From a virus, in the IMG/VR virus record IMGVR_UViG_3300033052_000132, positions 1 through 49,714 of that record: a stretch of DNA of 49,714 bases. One strand, 5' to 3'. Positions 23,201 through 29,717 of the stretch are shown here, one piece after another. The notes beneath the pieces are model-generated. The model made no database searches, was not told the DNA's origin, and worked only from the letters and a program-made list of their open reading frames with translations. A program made the position numbers and the translations under genes. Every line of letters begins with the position of its first letter. Position 1 is the first letter of the stretch.

Positions 23201-24369
23201 TCGGTCGCCTTACGCAGGCGCTCCTCTAAAGCCGAGGCTTGCCGCGTTGAGTTTTCAAAACCAAAGGTGGCGTTTTCACCCCTTTGCCCTGGAGCTTGGG
23301 CACGAATGCGCTGGATCTCCTGCTCTGCTAAAGCTTGCTGGAGCAGGGCCTCAGTGGTTCGTCGAATCTGAATTTCCCGATCAAGATTTGCCTTTGCATC
23401 ATCACGCGCACGCTGAGCCGAGCTAACAAGTGACTTTTCCTGCTGATCGAGAGCCTCCCTCTGATCAAGTATGGCCTTTCGGACCCCCTCTTCTGTTTTC
23501 TTGAATAGTTCTTTCGCAAGCCGCGCCTTTTCGGTTTCCTCTGCATCCTTTTTGAGTTTTGCAACAAGCTCATCGAGAGCATTACCAGAGTTCAGCAACT
23601 CCGAAATGAAGGGTGCAAGAACAGCAGTTGCTGCAAAGATCGCCGCACCCCAAGGTCCTGCAAGGAACTGGGCAGCTTTGCCGATCCGAGCCTGAAATTT
23701 GTTCGTGCTTTCGGTCAGACCGGAAAGCGCGAATGCCATTTGGGGGACCTGCTGCACGAAGATCGTTGTCGCGTTGGTGCCCGCTTGGGTTTGCACCACC
23801 ACGTCCTGCAACTGTTGACCTAATTGCGTGAAAGCTACACGCTGGGCACGAATGCCGTTGATAACGTTGCCCATTTCGGAGGTGCCGCGCCTTGTTGCTG
23901 CGACCACAGCATCCGTTGCCGAAGCCTGGCGATTTAATCGCTCTTGCACCTGCTCTGCGGCCTGAGCATGAGCACGAGCCTGTGCGGCGGCGCGCTCTTC
24001 TTCTATTGCTAGCGCTTGTGTTGCCGCGACAGCGAGGCGTGTTTTTTGCGAATAGTCTCCCTCTTCCTTGGCAGCGAGCGCGGTGGCGGCGGCGACTTCC
24101 CGCGCAGCAATTGCGCGAGCATTTTGCGCAGCCGCTGCGGCGCGCAATTCATCCACGCCGAGGTCCAAGGAACCAGCGCTGTTGCGCTTAACAGAAAGCG
24201 CCGCGTCTAGTTGGGTCCGGGCCTCATTGCTGAAGTCCTTGAACAGCTTGCCCGCATCGTTCGTCATCTTTGCGACTTCGGCAAGGAAAGACGATTTGGC
24301 GCTACCATCGTTCTGATAGACCGCACGCACGTTCAGCGGTGCGAACTTGTATCCACCTGCCACGTTCAC
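20218..24369 (-). CDS. tail tape measure protein with built-in M15-type peptidase domain
   Basis: A 1383-residue tape measure protein that sets tail length and crosses the envelope during DNA entry. Residues 1-180 and 290-470 are alpha-helical coiled coils; hydrophobic stretches occur near 235-260 and about 1000-1060 ('GSFIPIPGGQIIGSIAGGLL'). Around residues 480-577 lies a peptidase M15/VanY-like domain: 'SAHERGNALD' (about 529-538) supplies the first zinc ligands and 'HFHVEW' (about 570-575) the last ones. That should cut peptidoglycan peptides as DNA is injected. The start overlaps the stop of the DUF6441-like gene (ATGA). Confidence 0.85.
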   Translation of the reverse strand: MNVAGGYKFAPLNVRAVYQNDGSAKSSFLAEVAKMTNDAGKLFKDFSNEARTQLDAALSVKRNSAGSLDLGVDELRAAAAAQNARAIAAREVAAATALAAKEEGDYSQKTRLAVAATQALAIEEERAAAQARAHAQAAEQVQERLNRQASATDAVVAATRRGTSEMGNVINGIRAQRVAFTQLGQQLQDVVVQTQAGTNATTIFVQQVPQMAFALSGLTESTNKFQARIGKAAQFLAGPWGAAIFAATAVLAPFISELLNSGNALDELVAKLKKDAEETEKARLAKELFKKTEEGVRKAILDQREALDQQEKSLVSSAQRARDDAKANLDREIQIRRTTEALLQQALAEQEIQRIRAQAPGQRGENATFGFENSTRQASALEERLRKATEAVKVAQGNFGRAQSFFDVERGRRAADPVQVIEDRYKRLIEQARRRAVAEGKVGESLERQVKALERQKKAALDALTPSRASSSGMSGREISSSEASSIARKAGFQVNSADRSFSKQKALYDQWVAAGRPSDNPVAKPGTSAHERGNALDIQFGQGVTPASIRKAFADEGVRLTKVFKERGHFHVEWSTSGADKVLREIEQIDNFGKSAAETIARINERFNEQPRLVDQAAAATRELDRTIAELNEQQPAGFKQMIADAEAAKGVIQDALLRPLRDITKETQQQIQYQMLLLQGRDGEAQALQQITQLERSRITLTEAQKKEVTATAVAYQRISEEMQRAAEVQSSYLDATRSIRQEVEGVLGGYGSLASLGSVIKRQFQNVQGKVLTEQLFGDMFRDLDRWVKKETGIKDSVDILTSETERAGSAAGLMADALADATRRISGIGTPSAGLVSGPNATTSWGWPASLSIPASIRNPAYDGDPNPITVAGAKANKPVKTTVNDLTPADFFMRMGNSIGSKLIAALEGALGGRTFLSKFTNTIGGAIGGYAALGTKFGAGLGAARGLAFDYGKDLFGEKLGDKILGKFDKALGGAQTGSMISDISNALGLKMSKTGSQIGGAIGSFIPIPGGQIIGSIAGGLLGNLFGKKVNSGYAQVRNGSVVGTYGRTKDLQNDASEAAGGLVDTIASLAKTLGTRLGNYDFDFGKRNDRYVVNTGARGVFTFENEQQAAEFAVREAVADGAFLGMKDAQKRLIMANGNLQSQVEKAVKFGDVFKQLKAIKDPVGAALDDLNSQFSDLIDIFKEAGASAEELGSLEELYGLKRKDAVKQAQEATLGPLKSLQQSLKIGSDFYSLRDRQASAQAIYNPLKARVAAGDTSAFSEFSDAAQSLLDIQRQIFGSTSPFFDLLKEVTDLSNGALTSEQAKIDAANVSDSPFKDLATQQQATTSAIDAQTAAIVAALGGINENLVAALQIKVANNNSGVDVTSLLSSRGAW

Positions 24370-25091
24370 ACCTTCCTGAGTTCATTGCCGATCAAGGCCG
24401 GCAGTTCCTTCGCCACTTCGCTCAGCAGCGCTTGAATATTGATGCGCGCGGAGCGCGAGGTTCTCGGAATTGCGATGAAGCAAACAAGCAGTTGCTTTCG
24501 AATTTGCCCTTTGCGAGCCACGCCCCTCTTGGTCAGGCCACGGGCTGACCGAGCGGCACCGGTTGCAGAAACACCAACGTTCTCTACCGCCGCCAGAGGC
24601 CAGCCATTGGCTGACTTGAGGTAACGCAGAGGCCCCAACTTGGCCTCCATGCCCAACTCCGCCCAATTGCCAGGCGTGAGACGGCGCTTGTTCTTGCCTT
24701 TCCCGGCAACCCGCTGCATCGCGTCTGTCGGAATCCACAGCCAGCGTCCGCGGACTGGGGCGATAGTCGATCCTTCCACATAGGATTGGATCGCCCCCAA
24801 GGTGCGCTCAGACTTCGACCGGACATAGACGGTGCCCGATGCGCTGAACCCGCCATTGCTGTAGCGCCGCTGGATGCCACCACGCTCTTCATCTGAGGTA
24901 GAGCCAAAAGCATTGCCAAGACGGCCAAGGCCAGCACCGGCCATGGCTTGGCGGATGCCGTTCTTCAGCCGCTTCGCCCCCCGATCGGTTGCGCGCAGCA
25001 TGGCGCCTTCCAAAACCACACCGGTATCTTTGAAGAAGCTGTCAACGTAGGCGTCAATGCCATCCGCATTCAGCGTAACAGTCAGCTTCAT
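24366..25091 (-). CDS. DUF6441-like tail-region protein
   Basis: A 241-residue basic protein upstream of the tape measure gene. It has 'RGAKRLKNGIRQAMAGAGLG', 'GSTIAPVRGRWLWIPTDA' and 'GKGKNKRRLTPGNW', consistent with the DUF6441 family found beside tape measure genes in alphaproteobacterial phages, where it takes the place of minor tail proteins. The stop overlaps the tape measure start. Family assignment is by pattern only. Confidence 0.65.
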   Translation of the reverse strand: MKLTVTLNADGIDAYVDSFFKDTGVVLEGAMLRATDRGAKRLKNGIRQAMAGAGLGRLGNAFGSTSDEERGGIQRRYSNGGFSASGTVYVRSKSERTLGAIQSYVEGSTIAPVRGRWLWIPTDAMQRVAGKGKNKRRLTPGNWAELGMEAKLGPLRYLKSANGWPLAAVENVGVSATGAARSARGLTKRGVARKGQIRKQLLVCFIAIPRTSRSARINIQALLSEVAKELPALIGNELRKV

Positions 25092-25159: not shown

Positions 25160-25738
25160 TTAGGCGACTTCGGTTTGACCTTCGCCAGCATGATTGATCA
25201 TAGAATAATTGAACAGGTCGTTTTGCGAGGGCGTGACCATGCTCGGAACAATCGGCAAGCCCTGCCGGAACCACATTTCGCGCGCAGCCACTTGACTGAA
25301 CGTCTGCCGCGCCTCCGTCACCAAACGAAGCCGTTCCGCTGTTGTCGGCAATTCATCAGGCGCGGTATCGAACTGCCGCGGGCGCATATTGCCTGCGAAA
25401 TGATCGTGCAGCACCTGATAGCACTCGCGCTGGTACAGGATGACCCGCTCGCGCACAGTTTCATCCTTGATCCGGCCACTGTCGATGCCGAACAGCCACC
25501 CGTTGACCAGTTCAAGTTTGATGCAAAGGGCATCTTGGGCGCCACCACGACCGAAAGGTATATGCATGACACATATACCTTCGCTCAAAACGGGGTCACG
25601 TTTGACACGTTGCTCTTGCCCAGACCAATTCAAACCCATGGCTTCCACCATAGGCTTGAGGGCTAAGAACGTGCCATCATCCTGCTTGAACCCGTAGAGT
25701 TCATCTCCACGGAAGTTGACAGTAACAATTTCGCCCAT
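25160..25738 (-). CDS. phage antirepressor (P22_AR N-terminal domain)
   Basis: A 192-residue protein with the N-terminal domain of P22-type antirepressors: 'YGFKQDDGTFLALKPMVEAMG', split over residues 15-35, and 'LVNGWLFGIDSGRIKDE' with 'RERVILYQRECYQVLHDHF' later on. In P22 such proteins bind and inactivate the prophage repressor and are silenced by Arc and Mnt. The C-terminal half here is shorter and different. AAGGAGG lies before the ATG. The 5' leader has striking competing hairpins and a terminator follows. It sits among tail genes, as P22 immI does. Confidence 0.85.
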   Translation of the reverse strand: MGEIVTVNFRGDELYGFKQDDGTFLALKPMVEAMGLNWSGQEQRVKRDPVLSEGICVMHIPFGRGGAQDALCIKLELVNGWLFGIDSGRIKDETVRERVILYQRECYQVLHDHFAGNMRPRQFDTAPDELPTTAERLRLVTEARQTFSQVAAREMWFRQGLPIVPSMVTPSQNDLFNYSMINHAGEGQTEVA

Positions 25739-25759
25739 AAAGGGCCTCCTTGGTTTGGC

Positions 25760-25850
25760 GCTGTGACCGCCATGCTAAAACGGAGCCGCCGCGCTGTATG
25801 GTTTTAGCGGCACACAACGCGGCGGCTCCCCCAAGACCCGTCACAGTCGG
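25760..25850 (-). promoter_or_regulatory. antirepressor leader with competing hairpins
   Basis: On the minus strand the 160-base leader of the antirepressor gene contains two perfect stems whose arms interleave: GGAGCCGCCGCG with CGCGGCGGCTCC (12 pairs), and GCTAAAAC with GTTTTAGC (8 pairs). Both lie inside a closing pair CTGTGAC/GTCACAG. The two stems cannot both form easily because no loop separates the adjacent arms, so the leader may switch between two folds. That suggests control of antirepressor translation or transcription, for example by a small RNA or protein. Confidence 0.55.
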
Positions 25851-25902
25851 GCCTCGATCTCGGTATCTGGTGTAATTTTCTGATTTGGATCTGTTACCGC
25901 CC

Positions 25903-26265
25903 TCAGGCGGCGGTCAGCCTGCGGATATCGCTGGCAAGCACCTTCATCACGTCGCTCACTTCCTCGCCGTTCTCGAAGAAACTCACAGTCATGCCGATGT
26001 CGATTTTTTCGGCAATCGCACTCAGATGCGGGGCTGGAGTCTCAAGCAATGCCTTGACCGCATCGTAGTGAGCCGCCGTGTAAGGTGCCCAACCCTCTTC
26101 AGCAGATCGCGCTTCTTCGTATATCGCCGCACCATCATCAAGTGCGCGATAAACTGGTATCGTGATCTCTTTGCGGTAGCGGTTCATCACAGACCGCGCA
26201 AAGCGTTCTGCCCTGATTGCACCTTCCCATGCGGAAGGCTTGGGCGTATTGGCCATCTCAGCCAT
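25903..26265 (-). CDS. hypothetical protein of the immI-like module
   Basis: A 120-residue protein with AAGGAG nine bases before ATG 26265; an in-frame start 29 codons upstream has no site and would read through the divergent promoter. Helical N-terminal half ('RFARSVMNRYRKEITIPVYRAL', split), then 'IAEKIDIGMTVSFFENGEEV'. It starts next to the divergent ribbon-helix-helix gene and precedes the antirepressor leader. The stop lies within an ACCGCC/GGCGGT hairpin. Not recognised. Context suggests a regulator or accessory immunity protein. Confidence 0.55.
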   Translation of the reverse strand: MAEMANTPKPSAWEGAIRAERFARSVMNRYRKEITIPVYRALDDGAAIYEEARSAEEGWAPYTAAHYDAVKALLETPAPHLSAIAEKIDIGMTVSFFENGEEVSDVMKVLASDIRRLTAA

Positions 26266-26339
26266 GACCTGATCTCCTTGTGATCGGTTGTGGTTAGGAG
26301 CCGGGGCGAGGTTGCACCCTTGCCTCGGCTCTGATTTCG

Positions 26340-26387
26340 TGTTAACGCGCAATCATGAGCACGTCAACTGGTGATAACACGCAATCG
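26340..26387. promoter_or_regulatory. operator-like repeats at the divergent ribbon-helix-helix gene
   Basis: TAACGCGCAATCA (26343-26355) and TAACACGCAATCG (26375-26387) are near-identical direct repeats around the start codon at 26355, and GTGTTA just before the first copy is inverted as TAACAC in the second. Ribbon-helix-helix repressors bind such short tandem or inverted sites. Autoregulation is inferred. Confidence 0.5.
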
Positions 26388-26549
26388 CGAAAAAAGCGCC
26401 CTACTCAGACCGGTGAGCTTATAGGAACCCGATTGCAGCCCGAATTGTTGGCGACACTTGATGCTTGGAGAGCCAAGCAGCCAGATTTGCCAAACAGACC
26501 GGAAGCAATAAGAAGGCTTCTTACGACAGCGCTTAGCTCATTGGTATAG
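26355..26549 (+). CDS. ribbon-helix-helix (Arc/Mnt-like) DNA-binding protein
   Basis: A 64-residue basic protein on the opposite strand to the tail genes. After a Lys/Arg-rich N-terminus it has 'TRLQPELLATLDAWRAKQ' and 'NRPEAIRRLLTTAL', the strand-helix-helix pattern of Arc/MetJ-type repressors. No Shine-Dalgarno sequence precedes the ATG, so translation may be leaderless or weak. It is divergent from the 25903-26265 gene across a short promoter region with repeats, and close to the antirepressor, so a role in repressing it is likely. Confidence 0.75.
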   Translation: MSTSTGDNTQSRKKRPTQTGELIGTRLQPELLATLDAWRAKQPDLPNRPEAIRRLLTTALSSLV

Positions 26550-26774
26550 CTCTTGGTCCTTCAGACATTGGCTTTGTTGTTCGATTGACCAACTTGTATA
26601 CTCTGCAGAATTTCGTTCATCCGCTACAGCATCGATGACTTTTTGAGCTTCAAGGCATAATGTTCTTGCAGAGGCAGATTGCTCTCGCAAGAATTCATAC
26701 CGCTGCTTGGCTCGTTCTGCTTCGGACTGGCATCCGACCAGCAGGAGCGTTCCGAGTATAAAAACCTTACTCAT
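26538..26774 (-). CDS. small lipoprotein
   Basis: A 78-residue protein with a lipoprotein signal peptide ('VFILGTLLLVGC', Cys15) followed by a charged helical domain with two more cysteines ('ARTLCLEAQ' and 'QQSQCLKDQ'). ATG 26774 overlaps the stop of the frameshifted tail chaperone frame (ATGA), which couples it to that product. It overlaps the end of the convergent ribbon-helix-helix gene by 12 bases. It may alter the cell envelope of the lysogen (superinfection exclusion), but that is only a guess from type. Confidence 0.65.
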   Translation of the reverse strand: MSKVFILGTLLLVGCQSEAERAKQRYEFLREQSASARTLCLEAQKVIDAVADERNSAEYTSWSIEQQSQCLKDQELYQ

Positions 26775-27708
26775 TCTGGCCGTCTCACTCTCAGTGCTGC
26801 CTTTGCTGAACTGATGACGGAGAAGGCTTCCAAGAGCAACAAAGGCTGATCAAGAAGCGCGCCCCCATCGGGATATACGAAACCGGCCATGCCGCGATCG
26901 CAGTCCCGATGAATACGCAGCAAACTCCAATGATCTTCCGTTACCCGGTTGCGCGGGTTTTCTTTGAACGTGCCGACGCCTGGGATTTCCCAGCCTTTTC
27001 CGAGGTGATCTTCTCGTTCGAAAGCACCGGGGCAGTCGGCGATTGCGACTGCGATTCGGAGTTTCCCACTTCACTCCGGTCCAAGTACATCCGCCGAGAG
27101 CACGCGACCGTCAGTTCACTCCAAGCATTGCCTTCTTCAAGGCCGTGCTGCGCTTCACATGCAGCTAAGGCATCCTCAATGGATTCGGCAGTTTCCACAG
27201 TAAGGTATCCCCTCTCAAGGCGCGCAGACACGGGAAGGTTGGTGAAACCCTTGACCGTAACCGCAACAAGCATCGGCGCGGCGAGATTCCCATATTCCGA
27301 ATTGTCCGCCAGCATTCGTCTGAGCGGTGGCCATGATTGACGGATGTTATGGAGGAGCCGATTGACAGCTTCTTCAATAGCTTTGTCATAATTCCAGACC
27401 AGCGCTGGATCATCTTTTAATTGCGCATCGTAATCGTCGCGCGCTTCCCAATAGGCCTTCACGACCGGGACTTGCTGCTCAAAAATCTCAGCGTCCCACA
27501 TTTGCTCTAGCCCTTTGAGCACTTCTGCTCGGATGGCTTGGTGATCATGAAAGGCAATGCCTTCTTCCACCAAGAGACGGCGGTGGAATCGCTTGTCGCG
27601 CGAAGAGGGGGCCCGAAGCCGGAATACAGGTGCGTCCTCCAAGGCTTCAAGGCTGGCGGGGGTGAAGGCGAGCACTTCGCTCGCCTCCAAAGGGATGTCC
27701 TGGGGCAC
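26771..27708 (-). CDS. tail assembly chaperone, GT-type product by programmed -1 frameshift
   Basis: The 255-residue G frame (next entry) contains GGGAAAC at minus 27067-27061, with the heptamer phased as G GGA AAC relative to the zero frame, the standard -1 slippery phasing. After a -1 slip the frame stays open from 27061 to a TGA at 26773-26771, adding 96 residues ('LRIAVAIADCPGAFERED', then 'GWEIPGVGTFKENP', then 'PDGGALLDQPLLLLEAF'). The fused protein is 312 residues. Lambda G and GT arise the same way from GGGAAAG. The new stop overlaps the next gene's ATG. The other open frame here (+1) has no such signal. Confidence 0.8.
26941..27708 (-). CDS. tail assembly chaperone, G-type product
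   Basis: A 255-residue protein starting at GTG 27708 with AAAGGA ten bases upstream, which lies where lambda G lies: between the tail tube and the tape measure. Residues 20-60 read 'FTPASLEALEDAPVFRLRAP' and 'RDKRFHRRLLVEEG'. Most of the body is helical, with 'GNLAAPMLVAVTVKGF' near residue 145. The last 40 residues (Ser/Lys/Thr-rich) are replaced when the ribosome shifts frame at residue 215. Role inferred from position and the frameshift. Confidence 0.75.
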   Translation of the reverse strand: MPQDIPLEASEVLAFTPASLEALEDAPVFRLRAPSSRDKRFHRRLLVEEGIAFHDHQAIRAEVLKGLEQMWDAEIFEQQVPVVKAYWEARDDYDAQLKDDPALVWNYDKAIEEAVNRLLHNIRQSWPPLRRMLADNSEYGNLAAPMLVAVTVKGFTNLPVSARLERGYLTVETAESIEDALAACEAQHGLEEGNAWSELTVACSRRMYLDRSEVGNSESQSQSPTAPVLSNEKITSEKAGKSQASARSKKTRATG

Positions 27709-27756
27709 TCAGGATTGTCCTTTCAGATGTGTCCTGCCGTGTGGCAGGCAAGGTTG

Positions 27757-28533
27757 ATGAGAAACTTTTTCCAGATCCTGGAGATTAGGGACCACGGGAA
27801 CCTGATGACCCGTGACGACCTCAAGGAGAGGTTGCGCTCGCACAGTCCTGACAAGCACTACGTCTATGTCATTTGGAGATGCGATAAGCCCCATTGCGAG
27901 CCGATGTATGTCGGCAAGGGTAAGGGCCGAAGGGTATTTAATCACTTCTACGCCAAAGACCGCACGAACCTTCTGAAGAAGGCGATCTGCGACAAAATGC
28001 GCCGCAAAGGTTTCGAGCCCATCTACTCCCTGATCGGCGTTGAGATGACCGATGAAGAGGCGATGGAATTGGAAACGTCCGCCATTCGGAAGGTTGGACG
28101 TATTATTGAACGGAAAGGCCCGCTGACCAATTTCACCGAAGGAGGTGAAGGATCTGCAGTGACCCGAAAGCGAGGCGCGAACCATGGTCGGGCTCGCGCA
28201 GTGGTTGCCGGTGGTGTTCGGTTTGAGATGATGTCACAGGCTGCAAATGCCTTGAACATCTCGCTTTCGAACATCCACCTGCGAATTTCTACCGGTTGGC
28301 AGGGGTACTATTACGTCGATGAGGGGCAGCGTTCCAGAAGTAAACCGCCGAAGGGATCTCCAGAGCATATTTCCCGAATGAGGGCCGTGTGTCGTAATTC
28401 AGCCCAGAAAGTGTCAGTTGACGGGATAATGTTCAAGTCTCTTAGCGCCGCTGCGACACATTTGGGCGTTTCCTACGCTACCGTAAGAAATAGATGTCGC
28501 AGCGGCTACTCTGGATATTCTTTCGTCAACTAG
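27757..28533 (+). CDS. GIY-YIG homing endonuclease with two NUMOD-like repeats
   Basis: A 258-residue protein on the opposite strand, between the tail chaperone and tail tube genes. 'HYVYVIWRC' and 'MYVGKGKGRRVFNHF' form the GIY-YIG catalytic core near residues 32-63 (Tyr and Arg of that motif present), with 'MELETSAIRKVG' following. After a linker there are two similar DNA-binding units, 'GVRFEMMSQAANALNISLSN' and 'GIMFKSLSAAATHLGVSYAT', as in NUMOD modules. The first ATG with usable spacing is 27757; 27727 and 27805 are alternatives. It ends with TAG inside the palindrome CTAG, which also supplies the stop for the tail tube gene on the other strand. Confidence 0.8.
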   Translation: MRNFFQILEIRDHGNLMTRDDLKERLRSHSPDKHYVYVIWRCDKPHCEPMYVGKGKGRRVFNHFYAKDRTNLLKKAICDKMRRKGFEPIYSLIGVEMTDEEAMELETSAIRKVGRIIERKGPLTNFTEGGEGSAVTRKRGANHGRARAVVAGGVRFEMMSQAANALNISLSNIHLRISTGWQGYYYVDEGQRSRSKPPKGSPEHISRMRAVCRNSAQKVSVDGIMFKSLSAAATHLGVSYATVRNRCRSGYSGYSFVN

Positions 28534-29717
28534 AACGTAAAGTTCACACATGTGGACCTGTTGAGCGCGTCGATCAGCAGGTTTCCGTTTTCCATGATCA
28601 GGCCGCCGCCGAGGTCGGGGCTCTGATAGTCGAGGCGGCCGTCCGTCACGACGATCTGCACGAGATTGCCGAGGCCGGTGCCCCACTGTGCGAAGAACGA
28701 CATGTAGCCCTGCGCATCTGCCAGAGCGAGCGGGTCGAACGTCGCGGGCAGGTACTTCTGGCGCGTCATGCTCAGGCTGTGAGTGAGCGCAACGATGTCG
28801 GAGATGTCGCTGCCGTCCGCACGGTTCGGGTTGGGCGCGCTTTCCGTCTGCACGCCAAGATCCAGCGTGAAGTTCTGGAAACCAAGACGGGTCTGGGCGA
28901 GCCAGCCATCGCCATCCTTGTAGAAGGGAACGGCGCCGAGAGCCGGAACCGATGGCGTTGCCTGCGCAGCATGTGTGGAGATCATCGCATCGAGCGTTAC
29001 CTGCACCTCCGGGTAAGCCGCGTTGTCGCGGGTGGAGGTCGGAACGACGATCTGCAGCGAGGTCAGACGGCAGTTCATCAGGTCGAAGCGGTGGCCGTCC
29101 AGCCAGACCGAGTGCGACAGAATGATGGGATCGCTCGCGGTGACATCGCGCATGTACCCAAGCTGCGGCGGGATCTGGTAGTTACCCGTGACAGCCGAAC
29201 CGAAGGTTTCCACGAAGGTTGCGACCTTGGCGGCGGTATAAGCCCGGATCGCCGTCATGCGGGTCTTGTAGTCCGTGCCCATGCTGGCGAGGCTGATTGC
29301 CATCCCCTTGTAGATGTCAGCCGTTGCAGCAGCGCCAGCACCAAGGGTCAGTGCTGTGGTGGTGCCGGCCGAGCCTGCTTCCGCAGCAGCCGGGATGGCC
29401 GTTGCCGTGCGCAGTTCGGTCATCTTCGCAGCTTGGAAGAGGCGGCCGAGCAGGAAGGCGTTTGCAGCAGGAACCACGGTGCCAGCGGGCGGGCGCAGCT
29501 TTACGGTGTAGCCGAGCGTGACGCGCTTGCCGGCGACCTGATCCGCGTTCTTCGCGGGCGAGCCGGTGTATTCGTCGTTGGCGATGTTCACGGATTCGAT
29601 CTGAAGGCTCAGGTTCGAAACCGGCATGAGGTCGGCGGGCTGGGTCGGCGTGGTGAACACGTCCACTACCGACTGGATCGCGATGGCGACCGCCGTGTTG
29701 TTCGACTTAAGGGCCAT
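28530..29717 (-). CDS. major tail tube protein
   Basis: A 395-residue protein beginning 'MALKSNNTAVAIAIQSVVDV' and containing 'VNIANDEYTGSPAKNADQVAGK', split here after residue 42; that opening is typical of siphovirus tail tube subunits of the V type. The rest is beta-rich with repeated domains ('TLDLGVQTESAP', 'VQIVVTDGRLDYQSP'). It lies after the tail terminator gene and before the chaperone gene, as in lambda. The stop is a TAG shared in CTAG with the convergent homing endonuclease. Confidence 0.8.
   Translation of the reverse strand: MALKSNNTAVAIAIQSVVDVFTTPTQPADLMPVSNLSLQIESVNIANDEYTGSPAKNADQVAGKRVTLGYTVKLRPPAGTVVPAANAFLLGRLFQAAKMTELRTATAIPAAAEAGSAGTTTALTLGAGAAATADIYKGMAISLASMGTDYKTRMTAIRAYTAAKVATFVETFGSAVTGNYQIPPQLGYMRDVTASDPIILSHSVWLDGHRFDLMNCRLTSLQIVVPTSTRDNAAYPEVQVTLDAMISTHAAQATPSVPALGAVPFYKDGDGWLAQTRLGFQNFTLDLGVQTESAPNPNRADGSDISDIVALTHSLSMTRQKYLPATFDPLALADAQGYMSFFAQWGTGLGNLVQIVVTDGRLDYQSPDLGGGLIMENGNLLIDALNRSTCVNFTF

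Follow-up and report, generated by a model that had tools for sequence, protein, structure and literature searches.

The minus strand of the window, by which we mean the whole 49,714-nt stretch of viral DNA analysed (IMG/VR record IMGVR_UViG_3300033052_000132), carries what is very probably a tail assembly chaperone gene of the lambda type, expressed through programmed -1 ribosomal frameshifting. An earlier note, made from the letters of the window, had proposed that this gene gives G and GT products as in lambda, and that interpretation is supported by the slippery heptamer and the open -1 frame in relatives and by the position of the gene. Most ribosomes would finish gene G at 26941, which gives a chaperone of 255 aa, while a minority would slip back one base on G_GGA_AAC (P site GGA to GGG, A site AAC to AAA) and go on in the -1 frame, so that a folded T domain of 96 aa is appended. 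By analogy with lambda, G would coat the tape measure protein and T would recruit the major tail protein, the slip rate setting the G:GT ratio needed in tail assembly. What the analysis shows is the anatomy of the sequence, its conservation, the synteny and the predicted folding of T; the occurrence and frequency of slippage and the functions of G and T are inferred.

Reading the frames of the window bore out the anatomy that the earlier note had described (Table 1). The note had given the heptamer the correct phase for -1 slippage, and GGGAAAC indeed falls in X_XXY_YYZ phase (GTG GGA AAC; minus 27067-27061) within the 255 codons of G, read as G_GGA_AAC in the 0 frame from the GTG start. The end of the 0 frame at 26941 was likewise correct, a TAA being found there, and so was the claim that the -1 frame stays open for 96 codons past the heptamer. 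From GGG to its TGA this frame comprises 98 codons, that is, 96 beyond the two slipped codons; its upstream stop is the TGA at 27073-27071, so that it opens at 27070, one codon before the heptamer, and it holds no ATG, GTG or TTG before codon 48. The predicted GT product has 312 aa. The note had also placed the T stop over the next ATG: the overlap itself stands, since the ATG at 26774 shares ATGA with the TGA, but the overlapped gene encodes a small lipoprotein in an inserted block of cargo and is not the next tail gene.

Table 1. Features of the G/T locus and its neighbours, in window coordinates
Feature	Position	Strand	Remarks
Gene G, putative tail assembly chaperone	26941..27708	-	0 frame, GTG start at 27708, 255 aa
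Slippery heptamer G_GGA_AAC	27061..27067	-	Canonical in-phase heptamer at homologous place in 39/40 loci
T extension, -1 frame	26771..27061	-	96 codons from CTC 27061-27059, plus TGA 26773-26771; open in 40/40 loci
Possible stimulatory hairpin	27032..27052	-	8 nt 3' of heptamer, ~8 bp; common to window and sister L013
Putative major tail protein	28530..29717	-	By position and length; homologue upstream of G/T in 26/26 loci (tblastn)
p24366, conserved tail-region gene, phrog_6367	24366..25091	-	Downstream of T in 25/26 loci; L009 ends there
Putative tape measure protein, 1383 aa	20218..24369	-	By length, position and sub-threshold TMP_2 match; same position in 22/26 loci

Taken singly, the window offers weak evidence, because the heptamer is not rare and the -1 frame is often open in shuffled sequence. 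GGGAAAC occurs six times in the window against 6.6 copies expected, which makes the heptamer alone unremarkable, and gene G holds two other in-phase X_XXY_YYZ strings (CCCTTTG at 27694 and GGGTTTC at 27250). Synonymous shuffling kept the -1 frame open to the 0-frame stop in 347 of 5000 trials, and dinucleotide shuffling of the 98-codon stretch left it open in 179 of 2000; the openness of this frame is thus, by itself, only moderately unlikely by chance. The case therefore rests on relatives, and it is their conservation that makes the locus more than a chance arrangement.

Relatives were found by searches with G and T in IMG/VR, Altericroceibacterium indicum, Croceibacterium xixiisoli (S36, L003) and other genomes of the same family group, 15 of 397 of which gave a match, at 16 places; L053, one of these, was a false match and was left out. 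Also left out were duplicates (L001, L003 and L040, all three of them the L032 locus, and L039, which is L002), L042, whose T and 0-frame tail are identical to those of L018, and L005-L012, whose contigs are shared with rows within L013-L035. The final set comprised the window and 39 loci, 40 in all, and a thinned set of 37 additionally omitted L027 and L051, as near-duplicates, and L054, as the second of two copies in a single genome. The earlier note had named homologues with a closed -1 frame or an unconserved heptamer as evidence that would tell against it: the frame is closed in none of the 39 relatives, running for 93-103 codons from the heptamer, and 38 of the 39 have a canonical in-phase heptamer at the homologous position, mostly AAAAAAC instead of GGGAAAC. 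Across the 40 loci, the site reads AAAAAAC in 31, GGGAAAC in seven, GGGAAAA in one (L033) and GGATTTT in one (L034). From the encoded amino acids and the frequency with which these genes use each codon (AAA makes up only 20% of Lys codons and GGA 7% of Gly codons), a canonical heptamer would be expected at about 6% per locus, as against the 36 of 37 loci at which it was seen, a calculation that ignores relatedness. A single sequence in which a base had been lost or gained, through decay of the gene or an error of sequencing, would also look like a two-frame gene; the identical two-frame layout in 39 relatives from many separate records, all but one with a canonical slippery site, leaves this explanation with next to no probability.

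Slipperiness is retained while the letters of the heptamer change. On a T tree built without the first three T residues, the first triplet (in the states AAA, GGG and GGA) has changed at least six times. Such replacement speaks against transcriptional slippage on a run of A as the event that joins the two frames. RNA polymerase could slip on the runs of six or seven A that stand at the site in many relatives, but the window, L013, L033, L045-L048 and L054 carry GGGAAAC or GGGAAAA, with a longest run of four, and the property common to the sites is X_XXY_YYZ rather than a homopolymer; we consider transcriptional slippage extremely unlikely.

The sole relative without a canonical heptamer, L034 (on the same contig as L011), reads G_GAT_TTT and is followed about 5 nt downstream by a very stable hairpin. 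The natural retroviral shift site G_GAU_UUA is similar, and on account of this likeness and of the strong hairpin after the site (z -5.9) the L034 site may still work.

The -1 frame was said in the earlier note to encode sensible protein sequence, a judgement confirmed by the conservation of T in relatives and by its AlphaFold model (mean pLDDT 92, from 39 aligned sequences). Identity of T to the window ranges from 27 to 69% over 38 relatives, with P66, Q74, P75 and L78 invariant (alignment A5). The model of G, confident as far as roughly the slip site, reaches a pLDDT of at least 90 at 196 of 255 residues and lies below 50 at residues 217-255; these make up the 0-frame tail after the heptamer, which is predicted to be disordered. 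The alignment of G held the window and 38 homologous G rows. Mean pairwise identity over 24 loci rose from 0.33 in the last 90 codons of G, through 0.41 in the 0-frame tail and 0.46 in the overlapping part of T, to 0.50 in the part of T past the overlap. Per-position entropy (25 loci) was high at third positions before the site and again from about 135 nt past it, and this measure of codon periodicity gave no clean separation of the two frames within the overlap.

In three relatives (L045, L046 and L054), a 0-frame stop TGA lies directly behind GGGAAAC (GGGAAACTGA). These loci have lost the 0-frame tail yet keep T, which indicates that T, and not the tail, is under retention. The AAAAAAC sites of three lambda-type T loci (L085, L090 and L104) likewise have a 0-frame stop directly behind them.

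T could instead be a separate gene translated from an internal start of its own, and in 17 of the 40 loci an ATG, GTG or TTG does lie in the -1 frame between the upstream stop and the heptamer. The other 23 loci, including the window, have no such codon; in these, the first start-like codon of T comes at least 40 codons in and after the conserved KLRIAVA segment. An internal start would moreover leave the retention of the heptamer unexplained, and we judge it very unlikely in comparison with the frameshift.

RNA structure 3' of the heptamer was assessed by folding. The 61-nt stretch holding the possible hairpin of the window (Table 1) gave a z of -1.9, and the corresponding value for L013 was -0.9. 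A stimulatory hairpin common to the family was rejected as a general feature, as the three lengths tried (36, 45 and 60 nt) gave no consistent excess of structure. At these lengths, respectively, mean z was -0.87, -0.37 and -0.78 in the GGG group (n=7) and 0.14, 0.05 and -0.92 in the AAA group (n=29), with Mann-Whitney p values of 0.036, 0.131 and 0.815 between the groups; a separate run on 25 loci gave a mean z of -0.81 at 60 nt. Strong hairpins in single loci at 45 nt (L002, z -5.2; L034, -5.9; L044, -3.7) were picked post hoc.

Except for GGGAAAA (L033) and GGATTTT (L034), the heptamers of the family end in AAC, and none ends in AAG. We considered whether this ending reflects hosts that carry tRNA-Lys(CUU), a tRNA expected to pair tightly with AAG. 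A tRNA-Lys(CTT) was present in all 13 host genomes searched; the idea was contradicted, however, by a comparison survey of the same phylum, in which 20 of 398 genomes had a match to lambda-type T domains (PF06223). The commonest site in the survey was AAAAAAC (12 of 20), and a pattern search of those 12 genomes found tRNA-Lys(TTT) alone in seven and nothing in five. Both AAAAAAG cases (G681 and G773) came from genomes with CTT. The survey also held GGGAAAG in L093 and L099, the former doubtful in that its 0 frame runs for just 20 codons before the site, AAAAAAT/AAATTTT in L088 and CCCAAAA in L091; in L092 and L094 the scanned stretch lacked an in-phase heptamer. Sites that end in AAC are simply common in the phylum.

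The gene order in the window and its relatives (putative major tail protein, G, T, p24366, putative tape measure protein) is that of a lambda-type tail operon. In the tblastn comparison of 26 loci, L009, L036, L037 and L038 gave no tape measure match, and G had no match at E 1e-3 in L036 and L037, both of which have an open 0 frame with a heptamer. The TMP_2 match of the putative tape measure protein (E 0.0013, 18.9 bits) lies under the cut-off of 30.2, and residues 490-556 of this protein form a VanY-like peptidase domain (E 1.6e-5). Other proteins of the window include a lambda-family portal, an S49 protease, a lambda D-type decoration protein and a capsid E protein. In L009, the major capsid protein is 85% identical to that of the window as against 30-49% for the tail genes, suggesting that head and tail modules have been exchanged.

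The putative major tail gene and G are 822 nt apart in the window, against some 25-140 nt in most relatives, and this gap is crossed in antisense by an ORF for a GIY-YIG/I-TevI-type homing endonuclease (27538-28533, plus strand). The true start of the ORF is probably inside the gap, and the last four bases at its 3' end are shared with the end of the major tail gene. About 1.6 kb of non-tail genes (25160-26774) separate T from the next conserved tail gene: a small lipoprotein (minus), a ribbon-helix-helix-like ORF (plus; so called by eye, the ORF having no Pfam match), an ORF without assignment (minus) and a P22-type antirepressor (minus). Homologues of this cargo occur at the same place in L018 (the ribbon-helix-helix-like ORF), L019 (the lipoprotein and an 80% identical antirepressor) and L024 (the lipoprotein and the ribbon-helix-helix-like ORF), so that 25160-26774 looks like a recurrent cargo site. 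The antirepressor and ribbon-helix-helix pair is reminiscent of the immI module of P22.

Searches with the G and T proteins of the window gave no match in Pfam, PHROGs (E 0.1) or NCBIfam, nor any matching INPHARED record among 50,697 phages, and for this reason the G/T protein family of these phages, whose hosts are sphingomonad-type bacteria, looks undescribed. The titles and abstracts listed as matches for tail-chaperone frameshifts in sphingomonad or erythrobacter phages contained no report of this protein family. Some members of the family have marginal PHROG matches, one of them to the tail assembly chaperone family phrog_33372 (E 0.039). No convincing match for G or T was obtained in a sequence search of the PDB. 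In fold searches of BFVD, neither protein had a match below E 0.001 (best for G, 4.5e-3), and T scored a Z of at most 3.1 in the PDB. We hold, with moderate confidence, a wider reading in which this is an undescribed sphingomonad-phage chaperone family whose site has switched repeatedly between AAAAAAC and GGGAAAC types with slipperiness kept, one branch having been cut to a site that the 0-frame stop follows directly (GGGAAACTGA).

The -1 frameshift mechanism itself is textbook and already established, so that the gain here is in annotation and comparative material, not in principle. ORF callers split or miss this tail gene, T having no start of its own in the window, and neither half matches a family library; the annotation is corrected accordingly. 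The 39 relatives add a family with which GT could be annotated in such prophages. If the wider reading is true, the loci provide near-equivalent natural shift sites, a series including GGGAAACTGA that could serve to measure how heptamer, stimulator and G:GT ratio are linked.

The G/GT mechanism is reportedly conserved across long-tailed phages (a finding attributed to Xu, Hendrix and Duda, 2004). Lambda itself uses the heptamer G_GGA_AAG, whereas that of the window ends in C, and the window family has one extra conserved gene between T and the tape measure gene. It also differs in having no detectable sequence relation to lambda-type families: in profile-profile comparison (hhalign), T reached 0.5% probability against a PF06223-type T profile, and G reached 8.2%, over just 31 columns at the slip site. 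The HK97 tail assembly chaperone 2ob9 is a weak match to the G model (Z 4.2, rmsd 4.5, 10% identity), suggestive but not proof, with 92 of its 104 residues aligned over residues 1-215 of the model; it ranks second by Z, tied with unrelated rows. The g-t genes of the haloarchaeal viruses HCTV-1, HCTV-2 and HCTV-5 differ by their archaeal hosts. The window family shares with lambda gpG/gpGT its place before the tape measure gene, a T domain in the -1 frame and, as predicted here, a -1 slip towards the 3' end of G and a rare long form (PMC5009743). In lambda, the tape measure protein is bound by G and the major tail protein by the T part of GT, with a low slip rate setting a G:GT ratio of about 30:1 (PMC5009743). 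Shift rates of 6 and 7% are given for tail chaperone cassettes in E. coli (PMC3711429). The phiCbK-group Caulobacter phages have chaperones before the tape measure gene with AAAAAAC, or GGGAAAC in Colossus (PMC3556154); the CcrColossus chaperone came ninth in the T fold search, at E 3.0. The likeness to this group lies in the same two heptamers, an alphaproteobacterial host and the same genomic role (PMC3556154).
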